64,000 bases of DNA, from positions 186,001-250,000 of the forward strand of contig NZ_JAFBIV010000001.1 in NCBI RefSeq assembly GCF_021531915.1. Direction: 5' to 3'. Made by a program: the position numbers and the translations under genes. The notes beneath the pieces were generated by a model, which searched no databases, had not been told where the DNA came from, and saw only the letters and a list, made by a program, of their open reading frames with translations. Below, one piece after another: positions 1 through 33,983 of this stretch (positions are counted from its first letter, which is position 1; the number at the start of each line of letters is the position of its first letter). This DNA is from Oscillibacter valericigenes. GTDB taxonomy: Bacteria; Bacillota; Clostridia; Oscillospirales; Oscillospiraceae.

Positions 1-849
1 GTGGTGATCCTCTCCGGTGACCACATCTATAAAATGGACTACTCCGACATGGTGGCCCGCCACAAGGCGGCGGGTGCCGCCTGCACCATCTCCGTCATGG
101 AGGTGCCCTGGGCCGAGGCCTCCCGCTTCGGCATCATGGCCGTCAATGAGGAGGACATGATCACGGAGTTTGCCGAGAAGCCCAAGGAGCCCAAGAGCAA
201 TCTGGCTTCCATGGGCATCTACGTGTTCTCCTGGCAGGCCCTGCGGAAGTACCTGACCGAGGACGAGGCCGACCCCAACTCCGAGAACGACTTCGGTAAG
301 AACGTGATCCCCGCCATGCTGAATAACGGCGAGCGGATGGCCGCCTACCGCTTCGCAGGCTACTGGAAGGACGTGGGCACTCTGGAGTCCCTGTGGGACG
401 CCAACATGGACATGCTGTCTCCCGAGTCCGGTCTGGACCTGAGCGACGAGTCCTGGCCCATCTACGCCCGCTCCGTCAATGCGCCGCCCACCTTCCTGGG
501 CAGCAATTCCCGTGTGACCCACAGCGCCTTCAACCGCGGCAGCGACATTGAGGGCACGGTGGAGAACTCCGTGCTGTCCCCCAACGTGGTGGTGGGTGCA
601 GATGCCCGCGTCAGCTATTCCGTGCTGCTGCCCGGCACAGTGGTGGAGCCCGGCGCCGTGGTGGAATACGCCATCCTGGGCGAGGAGTGCCGCATCGGAA
701 AGAACTGCCATGTGGGCGGCACGCCCGAGAGCGCGGAGGGCGGCAAATGGGGCCTGACGGTCCTGGCGCCCCACTGCCAGGTGGCGGAAGGAAGACAGGT
801 GGCCCCCGGCACCATGCTGGACCGCAACGGTGAGGAGGTGTCCAAATGA
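1..849 (+). CDS. glgC: Glucose-1-phosphate adenylyltransferase, catalytic subunit (5' truncated)
   Basis: This enzyme makes ADP-glucose from glucose-1-phosphate and ATP, the committed step of bacterial glycogen synthesis. The window opens inside the gene: the first visible residues are the internal family motif [14 protein letters not shown], so position 1 is not the real start. About 282 residues remain, covering the rest of the nucleotidyltransferase domain (with FAEKP and GYWKDVGT motifs) and the C-terminal left-handed beta-helix hexapeptide repeats (about residues 160-270). The stop overlaps the glgD start by 4 bp (ATGA), implying translational coupling. It is the first visible gene of glgC-glgD-glgA-glgP. 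Confidence 0.96.
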
Positions 850-1958
850 ACGGACTGCACGGAATTATCTTTTCCTATGAAAAGCGCAACGACCTGCGGG
901 AACTGAGCGAGATCCGCTCCTCCGCGTCTATCCCCTTCGGCGGACGGTACCGCATGGTGGATTTTGCCCTGTCCAACCTGGTGAACGCCGGCGTGACGGA
1001 CGTGGGCGTGGTGCTCCACGGCCGCTACCAGAGCATGGTGGATCATCTGGGCACCGGCAAGGTCTGGGACCTGAGCCGCAAGCGCGGCGGCCTGCGCATT
1101 CTGCCTCCCTTCAACTACCAGAAGGATTGGGGCACCATGCCCTTCCGGGGCAAGCTGGAGGCCTTGGCCGGCGTCCGCACCTATCTGGACACCATCCGCC
1201 AGGACTATGTGGCCCTGATGGAGGGCGACCTGGTGGCCAACCTGCCCCTGGCGGACATTTATGAGGACCACGTGAAGTCCGGTGCGGATATCACCGTGGT
1301 CTGCGGAAACGACAGCTTCGCCACTGCCGGCGGCACCTATTTCGAGAAGAACGCCGAGGGCCGGGTCACGGAGGTCCTTTATAACCTGACCACTCCCCGG
1401 GGTTACCGGGGCCTGGAGGTCTATATCGTTTCCACCAAGCTGCTGAAGGAGCTGGTGGACGAGTGCCACGCCAAGGACCAGTTCAGCTGGCGCCGGGATG
1501 TGCTGCGGGCCAAGAAGGATACCCTGACCCTGCGCACCTACATCTGGGAGGGCTTTGCCGCCCAGGTCCGCTCCGTCCAGGAGTATTATGACCGCAGCAT
1601 GCAGCTGCTGGACCCCGCCATCCGGGCGGAGCTGTTCACTGCCCAGCGTCCCATCCGGGCCAAGGGTGCGGACAAGGCCTCTACCTATGTGGGTTCCAAC
1701 GGCCGCTGCGTCAACTCCCTGGTGGCCGAGGGCTGCCGCATCGAGGGCACGGTGGAGAATTCCGTCCTGTTCCCCGGCGTGGTGGTAGAGGCCGGCGCCG
1801 TGGTCCGGAACAGTGTGCTGTTCAAGGAGGACGTGGTGAGCGCCAACAGCCAGCTGGCCTATGTCATCGCGGATAAGGATGTGAAGATCCAGGCGGGCCG
1901 CAGCCTCATGGGCCACGCGACCTATCCTATTGTGATCGCCAAGGGCAGCATCGTTTAA
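846..1958 (+). CDS. glgD: Glucose-1-phosphate adenylyltransferase regulatory subunit GlgD
   Basis: GlgD is the GlgC paralogue of Firmicutes that forms a heteromeric ADP-glucose pyrophosphorylase with GlgC and modulates its activity. The 370-residue protein keeps the fold ([13 protein letters not shown] near the N-terminus, hexapeptide beta-helix at about 280-365). The glycine-rich GGxGTRL nucleotide loop expected of GlgC is replaced by [13 protein letters not shown], which supports the subunit assignment. It starts inside the glgC stop codon. A GC-rich hairpin lies just downstream, so glgA may be expressed at a different level. Confidence 0.94.
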
Positions 1959-1964
1959 GTCTTG

Positions 1965-1988
1965 AAGGGGGGACTTGCGTCCCCCCTT
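1965..1988 (+). terminator. Hairpin between glgD and glgA
   Basis: A perfect 10 bp stem (AAGGGGGGAC / GTCCCCCCTT) with a TTGC loop lies 6 bp after glgD. Only three T follow, so it looks more like an attenuator or mRNA-stability hairpin inside the glycogen operon than a full terminator. Confidence 0.55.
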
Positions 1989-2047
1989 TCCCAAGCATCT
2001 TAGTAAACCGATTACGAAGTGGAATTTGTGGTGAAAAGGAGAACTTT

Positions 2048-3811
2048 ATGAAGATTTTGTATGCGACCAGCGAGGCTGTCCCCTTCTGTAAGACCGGTGG
2101 ATTGGCGGACGTGGCGGGCTCTCTGCCTCCGGCTCTGGCGGCCGAGGGCGCCGAGGTGGCAGTTGTCCTGCCCCTGTACCAGAAGGTGCGGGAGAAGTTC
2201 GGCGACCAGCTGCACTTCGAGTGCTATGACTTCGTGGACCTGGCCTGGCGGCACAGCTACTGCGGCCTGTTCTCTCTGGAGCGGGACGGTGTTACCTGGT
2301 ACTTCCTGGACAACGAGCAGTACTTCAACCGGCCCGACCTGTACGGCTACATGGACGACGGCGAGCGCTTCGGCTTCTTCTCCCGGGCCATCGTGCGGAT
2401 GCTGGGCCACCTGAAATTCTGGCCGGAGGTCATCCACTGCAACGACTGGCAGACTGCCCTGGTGCCCATCTATCTGAAGGATGACGGCGTGCGGGAGGAC
2501 CGCTTCCGCTCCATCAAGACCACCCTGACCATCCACAACATCGAGTACCAGGGCCGCTACGGCATGGAGACCCTGGGCAACCTGTTCGGCCTGAATCAGG
2601 GCTGGGCCAACGACGGCACCATCGTCATGGACGGAGATGTGAACCTGCTGAAGGGCGCCATCCTCTGCGCCGATGCCGTCAACGCCGTGTCCCCCACCTA
2701 CGCCAACGAGCTGAAAATGGCCTATTACGCCCACCGGCTGGAGAATATCATCCGTCAGTGCGACTATAAGCTGTACGGCGTGCTCAACGGCATCGACATG
2801 AAGCTCTACGACCCCTCTGCTGACCAGCGGATCACCGCCCGGTACTCTGCGGAGGATATGAGCGGCAAGGCGGAGGACAAGGCCGCCCTGCAGCGGATGC
2901 TGGGCCTGCGGGAGGAGGCCGGTACGCCGATCTTGGCTATGGTCAGCCGCCTGGTCTCCCACAAAGGTTTGGACTTGATTTGCGAGGTTCTCCATGATAT
3001 TATGGAGCTCCCGGTGCAGTTGGTGATCCTTGGCAAGGGCGACCAGAGATACGAGGAGTTCTTCTACTGGGCCGCCCAGCAGTACAGCGGCCGCATGGCC
3101 GTGCGCCTGGACTACAACGAGGCGCTGTCCATGGCCATTTACGCCGGCGCCGATCTGTTCCTGATGCCCTCCAAGAGCGAACCCTGCGGTCTGAGCCAGA
3201 TGATCGCCATGCGGTACGGCACCGTGCCCATCGTCCGGGAGGCCGGCGGCCTGAAGGACACCGTCCACGCCTACGAGGCCTGGCGGGATGCGGGCAACGG
3301 CTTCTCCTTCACCAATTACGCCAGCGGCGACATGCTCTACGTGATCCGCGAGGCGGTGCAGCTGTACAAGGAGAATCCCGACGCCTTTGACCGCCTGCGC
3401 AAGCGGGCCATGGCCGGCGATTTCAGCTGGGCCAGAAGCGCCAAAGAGTACCTGCGGATATACGCCAATATTACCGGCCAGACCTGGCCCGTGCCCGCCC
3501 CCGCCGCGGAGGAGCCCGCCGTGACGGCCTTCGCCGAGGAGAAGGCGGAAGTAGCCGTTCCGGAGGAGGCCCCCGCTGAGGAGAAGCCCAAGAAGAAAAC
3601 CGTCCGCAGGACCGCGGCCAAGAAGGCCGAAAAGGCCGAAAAGCCTGAAAAAGCCGAAAAGAAGGCCGGAAAGGCAGAGAAAAAGACCGTAAAAAAGGCG
3701 ACTCCCAAGAAGGAATCCGCCAAAAAAGATACCGAACAGAAAGAGACCCCGAAAAAAGAGACCAAAAAGAAAGGGCCCGCCAAGTCCAAAAAGGAGGATC
3801 AGGCGGAGTAA
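2048..3811 (+). CDS. glgA: Glycogen synthase with long Lys/Ala/Glu-rich C-terminal tail
   Basis: It transfers glucose from ADP-glucose to the growing alpha-1,4-glucan. The GT5 N-terminus is clear (CKTGGLADVAGSLP at about 15-28, the ADP-glucose-binding KTGGL motif), and the C-terminal Rossmann half carries SKSEPCGLSQ and GGLKDTV. The catalytic part ends near residue 480, the usual length of the family. After it come about 100 extra residues composed almost only of A, E, K, P and V, with repeated KK and EKAEK units. A Shine-Dalgarno AAGGAG precedes the ATG. The gene ends 9 bp before glgP. Confidence 0.95.
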   Translation: MKILYATSEAVPFCKTGGLADVAGSLPPALAAEGAEVAVVLPLYQKVREKFGDQLHFECYDFVDLAWRHSYCGLFSLERDGVTWYFLDNEQYFNRPDLYGYMDDGERFGFFSRAIVRMLGHLKFWPEVIHCNDWQTALVPIYLKDDGVREDRFRSIKTTLTIHNIEYQGRYGMETLGNLFGLNQGWANDGTIVMDGDVNLLKGAILCADAVNAVSPTYANELKMAYYAHRLENIIRQCDYKLYGVLNGIDMKLYDPSADQRITARYSAEDMSGKAEDKAALQRMLGLREEAGTPILAMVSRLVSHKGLDLICEVLHDIMELPVQLVILGKGDQRYEEFFYWAAQQYSGRMAVRLDYNEALSMAIYAGADLFLMPSKSEPCGLSQMIAMRYGTVPIVREAGGLKDTVHAYEAWRDAGNGFSFTNYASGDMLYVIREAVQLYKENPDAFDRLRKRAMAGDFSWARSAKEYLRIYANITGQTWPVPAPAAEEPAVTAFAEEKAEVAVPEEAPAEEKPKKKTVRRTAAKKAEKAEKPEKAEKKAGKAEKKTVKKATPKKESAKKDTEQKETPKKETKKKGPAKSKKEDQAE

Positions 3812-30483: not shown

Positions 30484-30846
30484 TCATTTTTTGGCGGGCA
30501 GAAGCAGGGACACGCCCGACAGCAGCAGATAGACGCCGAAGGGCTTCCGCAGCACCTCCACGTCCAGGGCGGTGGCGGCCCAGGCCCCCAGAGCGGCGGC
30601 CAGCACGGCCCAGGGTACGGCGCTTTTCAACGTGGGCTTGTCCAGATAGCCGCCCCGCCAGTGGCAGATCAGGGCGCTGAGGGCCGTGGGAAGGAAGAAC
30701 AGCAGGTTGATGCCCTGGGCGGTCCGCTGGTCCACCCCCAGGAACAGGGTCATCACCAGAAGCAGCAGCGTGCCGCCGCCCACGCCCCAGGCGGAGATGA
30801 CGCTGGCTCCCAACCCGCACAGAAAGGGAAGCAGCCAGTCCGTCAC
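30484..30846 (-). CDS. TauE/SafE (TSUP) family protein, C-terminal half-like partner
   Basis: A 120-residue membrane protein with about four helices. It begins with a GTG overlapping the stop of the upstream partner (GTGA). The GLGASVISAWGVGGGTLLLL stretch is one copy of the repeated TSUP motif (glycine-rich, ..GGG..). Full-length sulfite/anion exporters of this family contain two such halves in one chain of about 240-260 residues. Here each half is a separate gene, so the two probably form a heterodimer. The substrate is unknown; organosulfur anions are typical of the family. Confidence 0.8.
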   Translation of the reverse strand: MTDWLLPFLCGLGASVISAWGVGGGTLLLLVMTLFLGVDQRTAQGINLLFFLPTALSALICHWRGGYLDKPTLKSAVPWAVLAAALGAWAATALDVEVLRKPFGVYLLLSGVSLLLPAKK

Positions 30847-31196
30847 AGCAGATACTTCACCCCCGCGTAAAAGAGAAAGGCGGCGAACAGCCACTTCAGC
30901 GCCTTGGTGGGGACCTTGCCGTAGAGCTTCCCGCCAACAAAGCCGCCGATCAGCCCGCCTGCCAGATAGGGCAGGGCAGTCCAAAGGGACACACCGCCCC
31001 GGAACAGGTACACGGCGGCGGACACCAGACACACCGGGAAGATGACCCCTACGCAGGTGGCGTACAGCTTCCGCTGCTCCAGCCCGCCCCAGCGGGAGAG
31101 AATGGGCAGGAACACCATGCCGCCGCCCCCGCCGAAGAGGCCATTGGCCAGTCCCGCCGCGCCGCCGGCGATCCGCGCCGGCCATCTGGAATCCAT
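30843..31196 (-). CDS. TauE/SafE (TSUP) family protein, N-terminal half-like partner
   Basis: A 117-residue membrane protein: AAGLANGLFGGGGGMVFLPI is the first TSUP repeat motif, and GGLIGGFVGGKLYGKVP matches the conserved loop after the third helix. It ends within the start codon of the second half-gene, so the pair is translationally coupled. GGGGGTGG serves as RBS. Both genes are intact, with no sign of a recent frameshift at the junction. Confidence 0.82.
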   Translation of the reverse strand: MDSRWPARIAGGAAGLANGLFGGGGGMVFLPILSRWGGLEQRKLYATCVGVIFPVCLVSAAVYLFRGGVSLWTALPYLAGGLIGGFVGGKLYGKVPTKALKWLFAAFLFYAGVKYLL

Positions 31197-31253: not shown

Positions 31254-31445
31254 TTATTTTAATTTGAAGCTCTCGCAGTCGGTGCACTTGATCTCGGTGG
31301 GGTTGGCTTCATGGGTGCCCACGGTGATGGAGTCCAGGCCGCAGTAGTTGGAGTCCTGGCAATGGTGGGCGCAGTTGTTCACGGTGCACTTGATGCTCTG
31401 GTTGGGGGTGCATTCGCAGCCGCTGTTGGTGCAATCCTTGTTCAT
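31254..31445 (-). CDS. DUF1540 domain-containing cysteine-rich protein
   Basis: A 63-residue protein with eight cysteines (CTNSGCECTP, IKCTVNNCAHHC, YCGLDSITVG, CTDCESF), the spacing of the DUF1540 domain common in spore-forming Firmicutes. It may bind metal through these cysteines. Function unknown. The ATG at 31445 has a near-perfect AGGAGG upstream. Its promoter region is abutted by the left inverted repeat of the HNH unit (31526-31554). Confidence 0.85.
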   Translation of the reverse strand: MNKDCTNSGCECTPNQSIKCTVNNCAHHCQDSNYCGLDSITVGTHEANPTEIKCTDCESFKLK

Positions 31446-31525
31446 GAGAAATTCCTCCTGCGTGAAAGAATGTTGGCTTTTCGCCGGAGGTAGTGTGCGC
31501 CGGGACGCGAAAAGTATGCAAAAAA

Positions 31526-31554
31526 GCAGAGCCGCGTGGCAAATGTCATTAAGT
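31526..31554 (+). repeat. Left inverted repeat of the HNH unit
   Basis: Begins GCAGAGCCGCGTGGC and ends AATGTCATTAAGT. Its reverse complement recurs at 32543-32574 with one 3 bp insertion and one mismatch. Confidence 0.8.
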
Positions 31555-31650
31555 TGAGCCGAAAATGCAGCTGTTAAGAAACAGGAAAACGTGTCCTGTT
31601 TCTTTATGTGAATATTAACCAGTCTGTAAGAAGAGTACATCCATTTTTAC

Positions 31651-31680
31651 TTTTCATTTGTGGATCAAATATGATATAAT
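31651..31680 (+). promoter_or_regulatory. Promoter of the HNH gene
   Basis: TTTTCA (31651-31656), an 18 bp spacer and TATAAT (31675-31680), 38 bp before the ATG. Confidence 0.55.
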
Positions 31681-31718
31681 TCATTACAGAGGCAATATGG
31701 TATGTGAGGAGAGATAGC

Positions 31719-32477
31719 ATGGAGGCTGTCGCATTATCAGAAGCCATTGATTTACTATTGGCCAACTGCAAAAACGAAGCGCAGCATTTGATTGCTGAAA
31801 AGTATCCATTTAAGCCTGACAAGGTCCAGAACAGAAGTTACTCCGAAAAAGAAAAGATGCAAATATTTTTGAAGGACGGTTTTGTTGACCGATACAGTGG
31901 GAAACAGTTAGTCAACCCGGGAATTTTGAAGAGCATTACTTGCTTTTTCCCCGAAGAGTTCCCCTATCATCCTCATTGGAAGATGAACCAATGTCATAAA
32001 GCATACTGGGACTTGCTCCCGACTATAGATCACATTGTACCGGTTGCCCGAGGTGGAGCGGATGCCCCTGAAAATTGGGTCACAACATCCATGCTTAACA
32101 ATTCCATCAAATCAAACTGGACTCTTGAAGAATTAAAATGGAATATCTGCACTGCCGGAAGTTTAACCGAATGGGATGGATTGACAGGAAAATTCATTCA
32201 ACTGGTAGAGGCTGTACCAGATATTCTATCCGATACTTATATCCGAAGGTGGTACAATATTAGCAAGCGTTCATTATATACACCAACATCAGCTGCAGAA
32301 AAGTCTTTTTACTGCCCCCTATATAACGGCAAGATTACGCAATATGATTGTGACGAGTTGTGCTGTGGTGTAAAAACTGGTTATTTTCCAAATGATGGAT
32401 TACCACATCTTATGAAACTGTCAGATATTAGCCGAAAAAGGGAGTCTTGCATTAAGTGTTCCCGAAACAAGGCTTGA
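31719..32477 (+). CDS. HNH endonuclease domain protein
   Basis: A 252-residue protein with an HNH nuclease core: DHIVPVARGGADAPENW followed by SMLNNSIKSNW (His, Asn and the second His/Asn positions). The C-terminal third has cysteine pairs (FYCPLY, CDELCCG, CIKC) that could form one or two zinc sites. The ATG at 31719 follows GAGGAGAG; an in-frame ATG at 31704 is less well placed. Codon use is AT-rich, unlike the flanking genes, and the gene has its own promoter and terminator. It might be a homing-type or defence nuclease; the sequence does not decide. Confidence 0.8.
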   Translation: MEAVALSEAIDLLLANCKNEAQHLIAEKYPFKPDKVQNRSYSEKEKMQIFLKDGFVDRYSGKQLVNPGILKSITCFFPEEFPYHPHWKMNQCHKAYWDLLPTIDHIVPVARGGADAPENWVTTSMLNNSIKSNWTLEELKWNICTAGSLTEWDGLTGKFIQLVEAVPDILSDTYIRRWYNISKRSLYTPTSAAEKSFYCPLYNGKITQYDCDELCCGVKTGYFPNDGLPHLMKLSDISRKRESCIKCSRNKA

Positions 32478-32481
32478 TATG

Positions 32482-32522
32482 AAAAAGTACCCACCCCCTT
32501 CAAAACGGGGTGGGTACTTTTT
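32482..32522 (+). terminator. Terminator of the HNH gene
   Basis: A 16 bp perfect stem, AAAAAGTACCCACCCC / GGGGTGGGTACTTTTT, with a 9 nt loop. It can work in both directions and would insulate the element from mgtE. Confidence 0.92.
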
Positions 32523-32542
32523 CGTGTTCGGCAAAAACTTTG

Positions 32543-32574
32543 ACTTAATGACATTGGCCACGGCGCGGCTCTGC
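32543..32574 (-). repeat. Right inverted repeat of the HNH unit
   Basis: Reverse-complement copy of 31526-31554 (ACTTAATGACATT ... CGCGGCTCTGC) with three extra bases. It ends 26 bp before the mgtE stop. Confidence 0.8.
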
Positions 32575-32600
32575 CTTTTGAAAAATTTTGAAAACGGGCA

Positions 32601-33983
32601 TCAGATCCCCAGCAGGATGGTGGCGAACTGGAAGTAGATCAGCAGGGAGATGGAGTCCACAATGGTGGAGATGAAGGGCGATGCCATGACCGCCGGGTCG
32701 AAGCCCAGCTTTTCCGCCAGAATGGGCAGGGTGCAGCCCACCAGCTTGGCGCAGGCCACGGTGCACACCAGGGTGGAGCAGACCACCAGGGCCACCATGG
32801 CCGTCACGTCCGGATTGTGCATCAGCCAGCGGTCGATCACCATCATCTTCACGAAGTTGGCCGCTGCCAGACACACACCGCAGCAGAGGGACACCCGGAA
32901 CTCCTTCCACAGCACCTGGATGCAGTCGCTGAACCGGACCTCGCCCAGGGACAGGGCACGGATCACGGCGGTAGAGGCCTGGGTGCCGCTGTTGCCGCCG
33001 GTGCCGGACAGCATGGGCACGAAGGAGGTCAGAATGGCGCAGCTCATAAGGGCGTCCTCAAAATGGGTCAGGATGATGCCGGTGAAGGTGGCCGACAGCA
33101 TCAGGATCAGCAGCCAGGGGGTGCGGGCCTTCCAGGTCTCGAACACGCCGGTCTTGAGGTAGGGCTTGTCCGAGGGCAGCATGGCCGCCATCAGCTCAAT
33201 ATCCTCCGTGGTCTCTTCCTCGATAACGTCCATGGCGTCGTCCACGGTGACGATGCCCACCAGCCGGTTCTCCGTGTCCACCACCGGCAGGGCCAGGAAG
33301 TCGTATTTGCTCAGGGCCTGGGCGGTGGTCTCCTGGTCGTCCAGAGTCTGGACGGAGATGAAGTTCCGCTCCATGATGTCGCCGATGACATCGTCCTCCT
33401 CCGCCAGCAGCAGCGTCCGGATGGACAGCAGGCCGAGCAGGTGGCGGCCGTCGTCGATGACATAGCAGACGTTGATGGTCTCCTTGTCGGGGGCGGTGCG
33501 GCGGATGCGCTTCAGGGCGTCCTCCACCGTCATGTGCTCCTTCAGGTCCACGAACTCCGTGGTCATGATGCTGCCGGCGGAGTCATCTGGGTATTTCAGA
33601 ATTTCGTTGATGCTCTTGCGGGTCTCCGGGTCGGAGTGCTTCAGAATGCGCTTCACCACGTTGGCGGGCATCTCTTCCACGATGTCCACGGTGTCGTCCA
33701 GATACAGCTCGTCCAGCACTTCCTTCAGCTCCGTGTTGGAGAAGCCCTGGATCAGCAGCTCCTGCTCGTCGGAGTCCAGCTCCACGAATACCTCGGCGGC
33801 CAGCTCCTTGGGCAGCAGCCGGAACATGATGGGCACCCGCTCGTCCAGATCGTTGCAGATGGCGGCGATGTCGGCTGCCTCCAGGGGCAGAAGGAGGTCC
33901 CGCAGCTGCGGGTACTGTTTTCGTTCAAAGTATTCCTCGATTTTTTCCACCAGCTCCCGGCGCTCCTCTTCCAGTTCCAACAT
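32601..33983 (-). CDS. mgtE: Magnesium transporter MgtE
   Basis: A Mg2+ channel of the MgtE family. The 460 residues comprise an N-terminal superhelical domain (about 1-130), two CBS domains that sense cytosolic Mg2+ (about 135-255), a connecting helix, and five membrane helices with the conserved TGGNSGTQAST pore motif. The C-terminal PAVMASPFISTIVDS is also typical. The leader contains an M-box riboswitch, so low Mg2+ should switch expression on. The stop lies next to the right inverted repeat of the HNH unit. Confidence 0.96.
   Translation of the reverse strand: MLELEEERRELVEKIEEYFERKQYPQLRDLLLPLEAADIAAICNDLDERVPIMFRLLPKELAAEVFVELDSDEQELLIQGFSNTELKEVLDELYLDDTVDIVEEMPANVVKRILKHSDPETRKSINEILKYPDDSAGSIMTTEFVDLKEHMTVEDALKRIRRTAPDKETINVCYVIDDGRHLLGLLSIRTLLLAEEDDVIGDIMERNFISVQTLDDQETTAQALSKYDFLALPVVDTENRLVGIVTVDDAMDVIEEETTEDIELMAAMLPSDKPYLKTGVFETWKARTPWLLILMLSATFTGIILTHFEDALMSCAILTSFVPMLSGTGGNSGTQASTAVIRALSLGEVRFSDCIQVLWKEFRVSLCCGVCLAAANFVKMMVIDRWLMHNPDVTAMVALVVCSTLVCTVACAKLVGCTLPILAEKLGFDPAVMASPFISTIVDSISLLIYFQFATILLGI

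Follow-up and report, generated by a model that had tools for sequence, protein, structure and literature searches.

An AT-rich unit with a single gene lies between mgtE and a DUF1540-type gene in Oscillibacter valericigenes, and raises the question of what it is and what brought it there. An earlier note, made from the letters of the window (the whole stretch of 64,000 nucleotides that was analysed) alone, described it as a gene between imperfect inverted repeats, a non-autonomous or self-homing unit that its HNH enzyme might mobilise. The non-autonomous unit is borne out, with ends of the IS4 family and no transposase between them; the role of the HNH enzyme is not supported. It is very likely that the unit is a mobile insertion cassette of the MIC type, in which IS4-family ends surround a passenger gene without a transposase, moved in trans and preferring terminators as targets.

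The general layout is as first described. Two pairs of inverted arms, of 20 nt (31535-31554 and 32543-32562, 95%) and 16 nt (31521-31536 and 32564-32579, 94%), enclose exactly one gene of 252 codons (31719-32477), and G + C content over positions 31500-32500 is ~40%, compared with 60-65% in the host. The ~30-bp repeat taken by the earlier note for the ends of the element is composite. It consists of an IS4-type terminal inverted repeat, an altered target duplication of ~10 bp and the halves of a split mgtE terminator; the outer 10-11 bases (GCAGAGCCGCG/CGCGGCTCTGC), about a third of the repeat, are host terminator and target duplication, and only the inner part is element end. Searching the 2.49-Mb host genome for the inner 13 bases, AATGTCATTAAGT, with at most one mismatch, returns the two ends of the unit only. 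Of 86 genomes of the genus, 41 contain the 18-base end CCAATGTCATTAAGTTAA with at most two mismatches, often in many copies, and a reversed control gave almost no matches. Confinement to two ends in its own genome, recurrence in the genus and a control close to nil together argue that the repeat is not due to chance.

Table 1. Positions of the probable cassette, its parts and its surroundings in the window.
Feature	Position	Strand	Basis
Host DUF1540-type gene, other side of the site	31254..31446	-	Open reading frame
Split mgtE terminator of the host, left outer half (GCAGA)	31526..31530		Empty sites of relatives with one intact hairpin
Putative left target duplicate, 10 bp (GCCGCGTGGC)	31531..31540		7 of 10 identical to right copy; flank lengths
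Left terminal inverted repeat AAATGTCATTAAGTTGA	31541..31557	+	2 differences from genus consensus CAATGTCATTAAGTTAA
Probable mobile insertion cassette proper, 1016 bp, without transposase	31541..32556	+	~63 nt of the left end and ~78 nt of the right end common to sister cassettes with other cargo
Left subterminal hairpin AAACAGGAAAACGTGTCCTGTTT	31580..31605 (approximate limits)		Sequence
Promoter-like site TTTTCA-18-TATAAT	31651..31680	+	Consensus scan; as a class not above chance
Cargo gene, HNH endonuclease-like, 252 aa	31719..32477	+	Pfam scores just under cut-off; homologues
Right subterminal hairpin GAAAAAGTACCCACC...GGTGGGTACTTTTTC, T-runs on both strands	32481..32523		Right end including hairpin common to sister cassettes
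Right terminal inverted repeat, reverse complement CAATGTCATTAAGTCAA	32540..32556	-	1 difference from genus consensus
Putative right target duplicate (GCCACGGCGC)	32557..32566		Exact in sister elements, altered in the window
Split host terminator, right outer half (GGCTCTGC)	32567..32574		Empty sites in relatives
Host gene mgtE, whose own terminator is the target	32601..33983	-	3' part conserved in 82 of 86 genus genomes

The promoter and terminator that had been proposed for the unit are both present as sites, but consensus scans find such sites hardly more often than in shuffled sequence (promoter-like, 4 versus 2.6 expected; terminator-like, 3 versus 2.1). The terminator scan scores one strand of the hairpin at 32481-32523, and the T-run of the second strand was read from the sequence; this hairpin is probably a bidirectional terminator that also faces mgtE. 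Hairpins at the place of the left subterminal hairpin are present in sister cassettes too, with a different sequence. A tblastn search with five IS4 transposases gave no match in the unit, neither a gene nor a relic, and its single ORF is the one with an HNH match.

Paired ends of this kind bound three types of unit in the genus: IS4-family transposons, miniature elements (MITEs) of 133 bp (L061, L064, L065, L150), and transposase-less cassettes with unrelated cargo (L054, L055, L056, L063, L068, L129, L146, and L067, of which only the right end was seen). The transposases, of ~455-475 aa, are intact in L052, L053, L058, L062 and L147 and frameshifted in L145, from O. valericigenes Sjm18-20; several of the elements that bear them also have a passenger gene. 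Four transposases score above the NCBIfam cut-off for the IS4 family (NF033592, 140-191 bits, cut-off 115) and also match Pfam DDE_Tnp_1, and the YREK motif Y-2-R-3-E-6-K is found in all five that were checked from relatives with the same ends. Published ends of the IS4 subgroup follow the pattern -AATR--------WTW, with a relaxed first nucleotide and direct repeats of 10-13 bp (PMC2266710). The genus consensus end CAATGTCATTAAGTTAA fits this pattern, the ends of the window unit miss WTW by one base on each side, and the duplications in 20 elements are 9-11 bp long. Transposase-bearing or cassette-end loci L052, L053, L062 and L120 have signal-peptide passengers of LysM or S-layer type, that is, exported proteins carried by IS4 elements. 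Small elements of ~150-190 bp in L066 (G104:C417) and in G104, G105 and G106 have a related end, CAATGTCATTAACTTTA or ...TTAG; exact duplications flank two of them, and neither of these lies in a terminator.

The window unit can be assigned to this end family because both of its ends match those of sister cassettes with unrelated cargo. The left end aligns with them over 37-63 nt at 70-84% identity and the right end over ~73-78 nt at 77-88%, and the cargo differs. The expectation that the repeat would be found elsewhere with other genes between its copies is thereby borne out: sister cargo includes an XRE-type regulator (L056), an XRE-type regulator with PAP2 (L068), an Mrr-type nuclease (L067), a DUF2089 protein (L063) and a DUF2975-like protein with an HTH (L055), among others. 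PADLOC matched the Mrr-type protein to defence nucleases and gave nothing or weak matches for the rest, and the cargo of L054 had no match in a PDB sequence search. Exact target duplications flank sister cassettes L056, L063, L068, L129, L146 and L055. Cassettes of such layout appear to derive from passenger-carrying IS4 elements, since a remnant of an IS4 transposase gene, its 3' end, persists at the same position in four of them (L055, L068, L129, L146), immediately inside the left end. A search of 84,980 species genomes for the right-end signature (hairpin, T-run and end) gave 19 places, all under Clostridia titles and mainly in Oscillibacter, Dysosmobacter and Oscillospiraceae; the signature was not found in 391 genomes sampled across the class or in viral contigs, and phage records lacked the 81-bp right end of the window unit. 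A hairpin GTACCCACC...GGTGGGTAC with a T-run is also found without an IS4-type end in the genus (L012, L013, L014, L017 and others), so this is a common terminator type of the genus and by itself no hallmark of cassettes.

Membership of this family leaves room for a different history, in which a passenger-bearing IS4 element, once complete, would have been deprived of its transposase by a deletion at this very site and would at no time have travelled as a cassette. Such an immobile remnant would fit the slightly decayed ends, the lack of an intact partner in the genome, the lack of a transposase relic and the lack of a second copy of the HNH cassette, and deserves to be kept in mind. We nevertheless consider it unlikely, given that transposase-less cassettes with exact duplications at many sites indicate that the layout as such appears to move, that four different cassettes share the same left-end deletion layout, and that the MITEs, whose ends are the same, have evidently been mobile.

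The insertion site is in keeping with an inserted mobile unit. The empty site between the DUF1540 gene and mgtE, which the earlier note proposed to look for in sister genomes, is present there with one intact terminator. In the 11 loci shown, from relatives with 81-88% identity in mgtE, this spacer is 93-173 bp long, with one terminator-like hairpin and no insert, and the closest of them (L075) has a 23-base hairpin, ACAGAGCCGCGAAGCAGCTCTGT. The left flank of the unit measures 15 nt (GCAGA and GCCGCGTGGC) and the right flank 18 nt (GCCACGGCGC and GGCTCTGC), which add up to the 23-bp hairpin plus 10 bp, as a duplication predicts. Other inserts of ~0.6-1 kb lie in the same spacer in L074, L079, L087, L092, L094, L101, L096 and L102; part of the inserts in L096 and L102 consists of ORFs like the genes at 30484-31196 of the window. 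The mgtE-DUF1540 site looks like an insertion hotspot.

A similar choice of target is seen across the end family. Pre-insertion sites were rebuilt by script for 20 non-redundant elements with exact duplications of 9-11 bp, and were scored as terminator-like where a stem of at least 7 was centred on the duplication and accompanied by an A- or T-run of at least 4. By this score, 12 of the 20 elements lie at the apex of terminator-like hairpins, compared with 0.21% of positions in the window and 0.27% of those in the retrieved loci, and 19 of 20 have the A- or T-run context found at 11% of window positions. An earlier score, with the stem barred from A/T tracts, gave 6 of 21; the rule was revised once after the data had been seen, with controls scored alike. 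A T-run of at least 4 occurs within the next 26 bases at 14 of 19 cassette right ends, compared with 6-8% of window positions. A preference of the end family for intrinsic terminators, although not an absolute one, is well supported by these sequence comparisons. Literature searches, whose coverage lacked most subscription journals, found no account of terminator targeting by IS4-family elements, and its novelty is provisional for that reason; provisionally, the choice of terminators by IS4-type cassettes is the new part.

The flanks of the unit could also be read as those of an IS1272-like event, in which the loop of the terminator would be replaced without target duplication, leaving inverted-repeat flanks. 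IS1272 likewise chooses stem-loops as targets, and removes the stem-loop with no duplication (PMC5678879). The two presumed copies of the 10-base duplication in the window agree at 7 of 10 positions, and the flanks align better in inverted orientation (15/15 with a 3-nt gap) than directly. Perfect inverted flanks, GTCCAGCCAGAGGC/GCCTCTGGCTGGAC, without a direct duplication surround a 3068-bp IS4 element with a passenger in L145 (Sjm18-20, 301-3368; the same as L122), and the relic in the unit's own genome (L108) leans, with the window unit, toward inverted flanks like those of L145. Stem-loop replacement is still very improbable, because exact direct duplications of 9-11 bp are present in 20 sister elements, and at the hairpin apex in most relatives, and the flank lengths in the window equal the L075 hairpin plus 10 bp. 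IS1272, moreover, belongs to another family, IS1182. Conversion between hairpin-bearing ends (loop homogenisation) might lie behind the inverted flanks, which we offer as a conjecture.

Cassettes of a comparable kind are known from Bacillus cereus, where MIC231 elements have IS4-family ends around passenger genes and no transposase (PMC1196294, PMC2266710, PMC3129680), and where IS231 also occurs with passenger genes adjoining its transposase (PMC2266710; PMC1196294). The window unit is built in the same way and shows the sequence features of a MIC, namely two ends of a known IS family, no transposase gene, and a passenger unrelated to transposition. It differs from MIC231 in that its family belongs to the IS4 subgroup by the published end pattern (ends CAATG...), has Oscillospiraceae as hosts, carries subterminal hairpins and prefers terminator hairpins; movement in trans has been shown for MIC231, whereas for the window unit we infer it. 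With the IS4 subgroup, for which strong target specificity is known (PMC2266710), the family shares relatives with a YREK DDE transposase, the -AATR--------WTW consensus and duplications of ~10 bp, from which the window unit departs by its lack of a transposase and its inexact duplication. Points that count against the cassette are this inexact duplication (7/10), the better inverted alignment of the flanks, the absence of a transposase relic, ends that are 2 and 1 bases off the consensus, and the lack of an intact IS4 transposase above the cut-off in the genome and of a second HNH cassette.

If the unit is such a cassette, an IS4-type DDE transposase from an intact relative would have bound both ends and excised it, and would have inserted it by cut and paste into the mgtE terminator with the duplication of ~10 bp. 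Insertion at the apex of the hairpin would split the terminator, and transcription from the HNH gene and from mgtE could then both end at the right-end hairpin of the cassette. The insertion may have been nearly harmless because this hairpin could replace the broken mgtE terminator. The genome itself contains only a decayed IS4 relic (C55, L108), between the halves of a hairpin, and no intact IS4 transposase above the cut-off; for this reason the cassette is probably stranded and immobile at present, unless a transposase arrives.

The passenger resembles a nuclease. Its protein has an HNH region (residues 1-188) and a cysteine-rich domain (191-251), and scores 21.1 bits with Pfam HNH (cut-off 21.4) and 21.4 bits with HNH_4 (cut-off 22); a phage homologue (L103) passes the Pfam HNH cut-off with 25.0 bits, and D104, H105, N119 and N128 are invariant across the homologue alignment. 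Homologues of the HNH region, with 42-59% identity, occur in Evtepia phages, on plasmids of Rhodococcus, Mycobacterium, Treponema and others, and in viral contigs, in which an alignment query gave two matches and a single protein query none. The proteins of Evtepia phage NatCom_42594 (XTK84525) and Rhodococcus (WP_065923632) share 45-50% identity over ~residues 1-185 and the conserved HNH motif. The window protein differs from these phage and plasmid proteins by its added C-terminal cysteine-rich domain, which is shared (49% over 61 residues) with an otherwise different Clostridia protein of 366 aa (L115, 1156-2256), whose gene adjoins one for a DUF262-like protein, named by eye. The homologue in L135 sits between tail-gene-like ORFs, and free-standing phage nucleases often lie between such tail genes.

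No relatives of the whole protein were found in genome contigs and no others in 400 family genomes, and an order-level search gave two partial relatives, L114 (N-terminal part) and L115 (C-terminal domain); a second HNH cassette was not found in genome contigs, the 400 family genomes or the order. By their annotation, the HNH relatives that were inspected are not described as lying in such cassettes. PADLOC gave no match for the protein, a PDB sequence search gave a generic HNH match only (4h9d, E 0.004), and an AlphaFold model from 3 sequences was set aside at a mean pLDDT of 43. We regard the HNH protein as cargo, probably a nuclease that may benefit itself or its carrier.

Homing driven by this enzyme, which would cut the empty terminator site, with repair then copying the unit into the break and producing the inverted repeats as by-products, could appeal to an HNH-like sole gene and to the phage homologue between tail-gene-like ORFs, and was rejected as extremely unlikely, because the ends belong to a DDE transposon family, sister cassettes at other sites have other cargo unrelated to HNH, the insertion sites are alike in structure and not in sequence, and HNH homologues were found without such ends noted. 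The earlier note had taken repeats that are widespread apart from the gene as a reason to abandon its proposal; they are indeed widespread, as the ends of a transposon family, which counts against mobility driven by the HNH enzyme and not against a mobile unit.

The cassette reading has wider implications for these bacteria. It is possible, although we would stop short of calling it probable, that Oscillospiraceae harbour a family of IS4-derived, transposase-less cassettes with one cargo each, which would choose terminator hairpins by structure, bring a replacement terminator and accumulate without burdening the host much; single genes would travel between conserved ends of 60-80 nt, with the cassettes as interchangeable carriers. 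Besides IS231 in Bacillus, a second subgroup of the IS4 family, at home in common gut Clostridia, would make one-gene carriers. Its choice of target can be read from the sequence, in terminator hairpins split by elements that carry hairpins of their own, and would offer a concrete, testable example of a DDE transposase guided to its target by structure. Since such cargo has no adjoining transposase, this traffic in genes for nucleases, regulators and enzymes would be overlooked by ordinary annotation.
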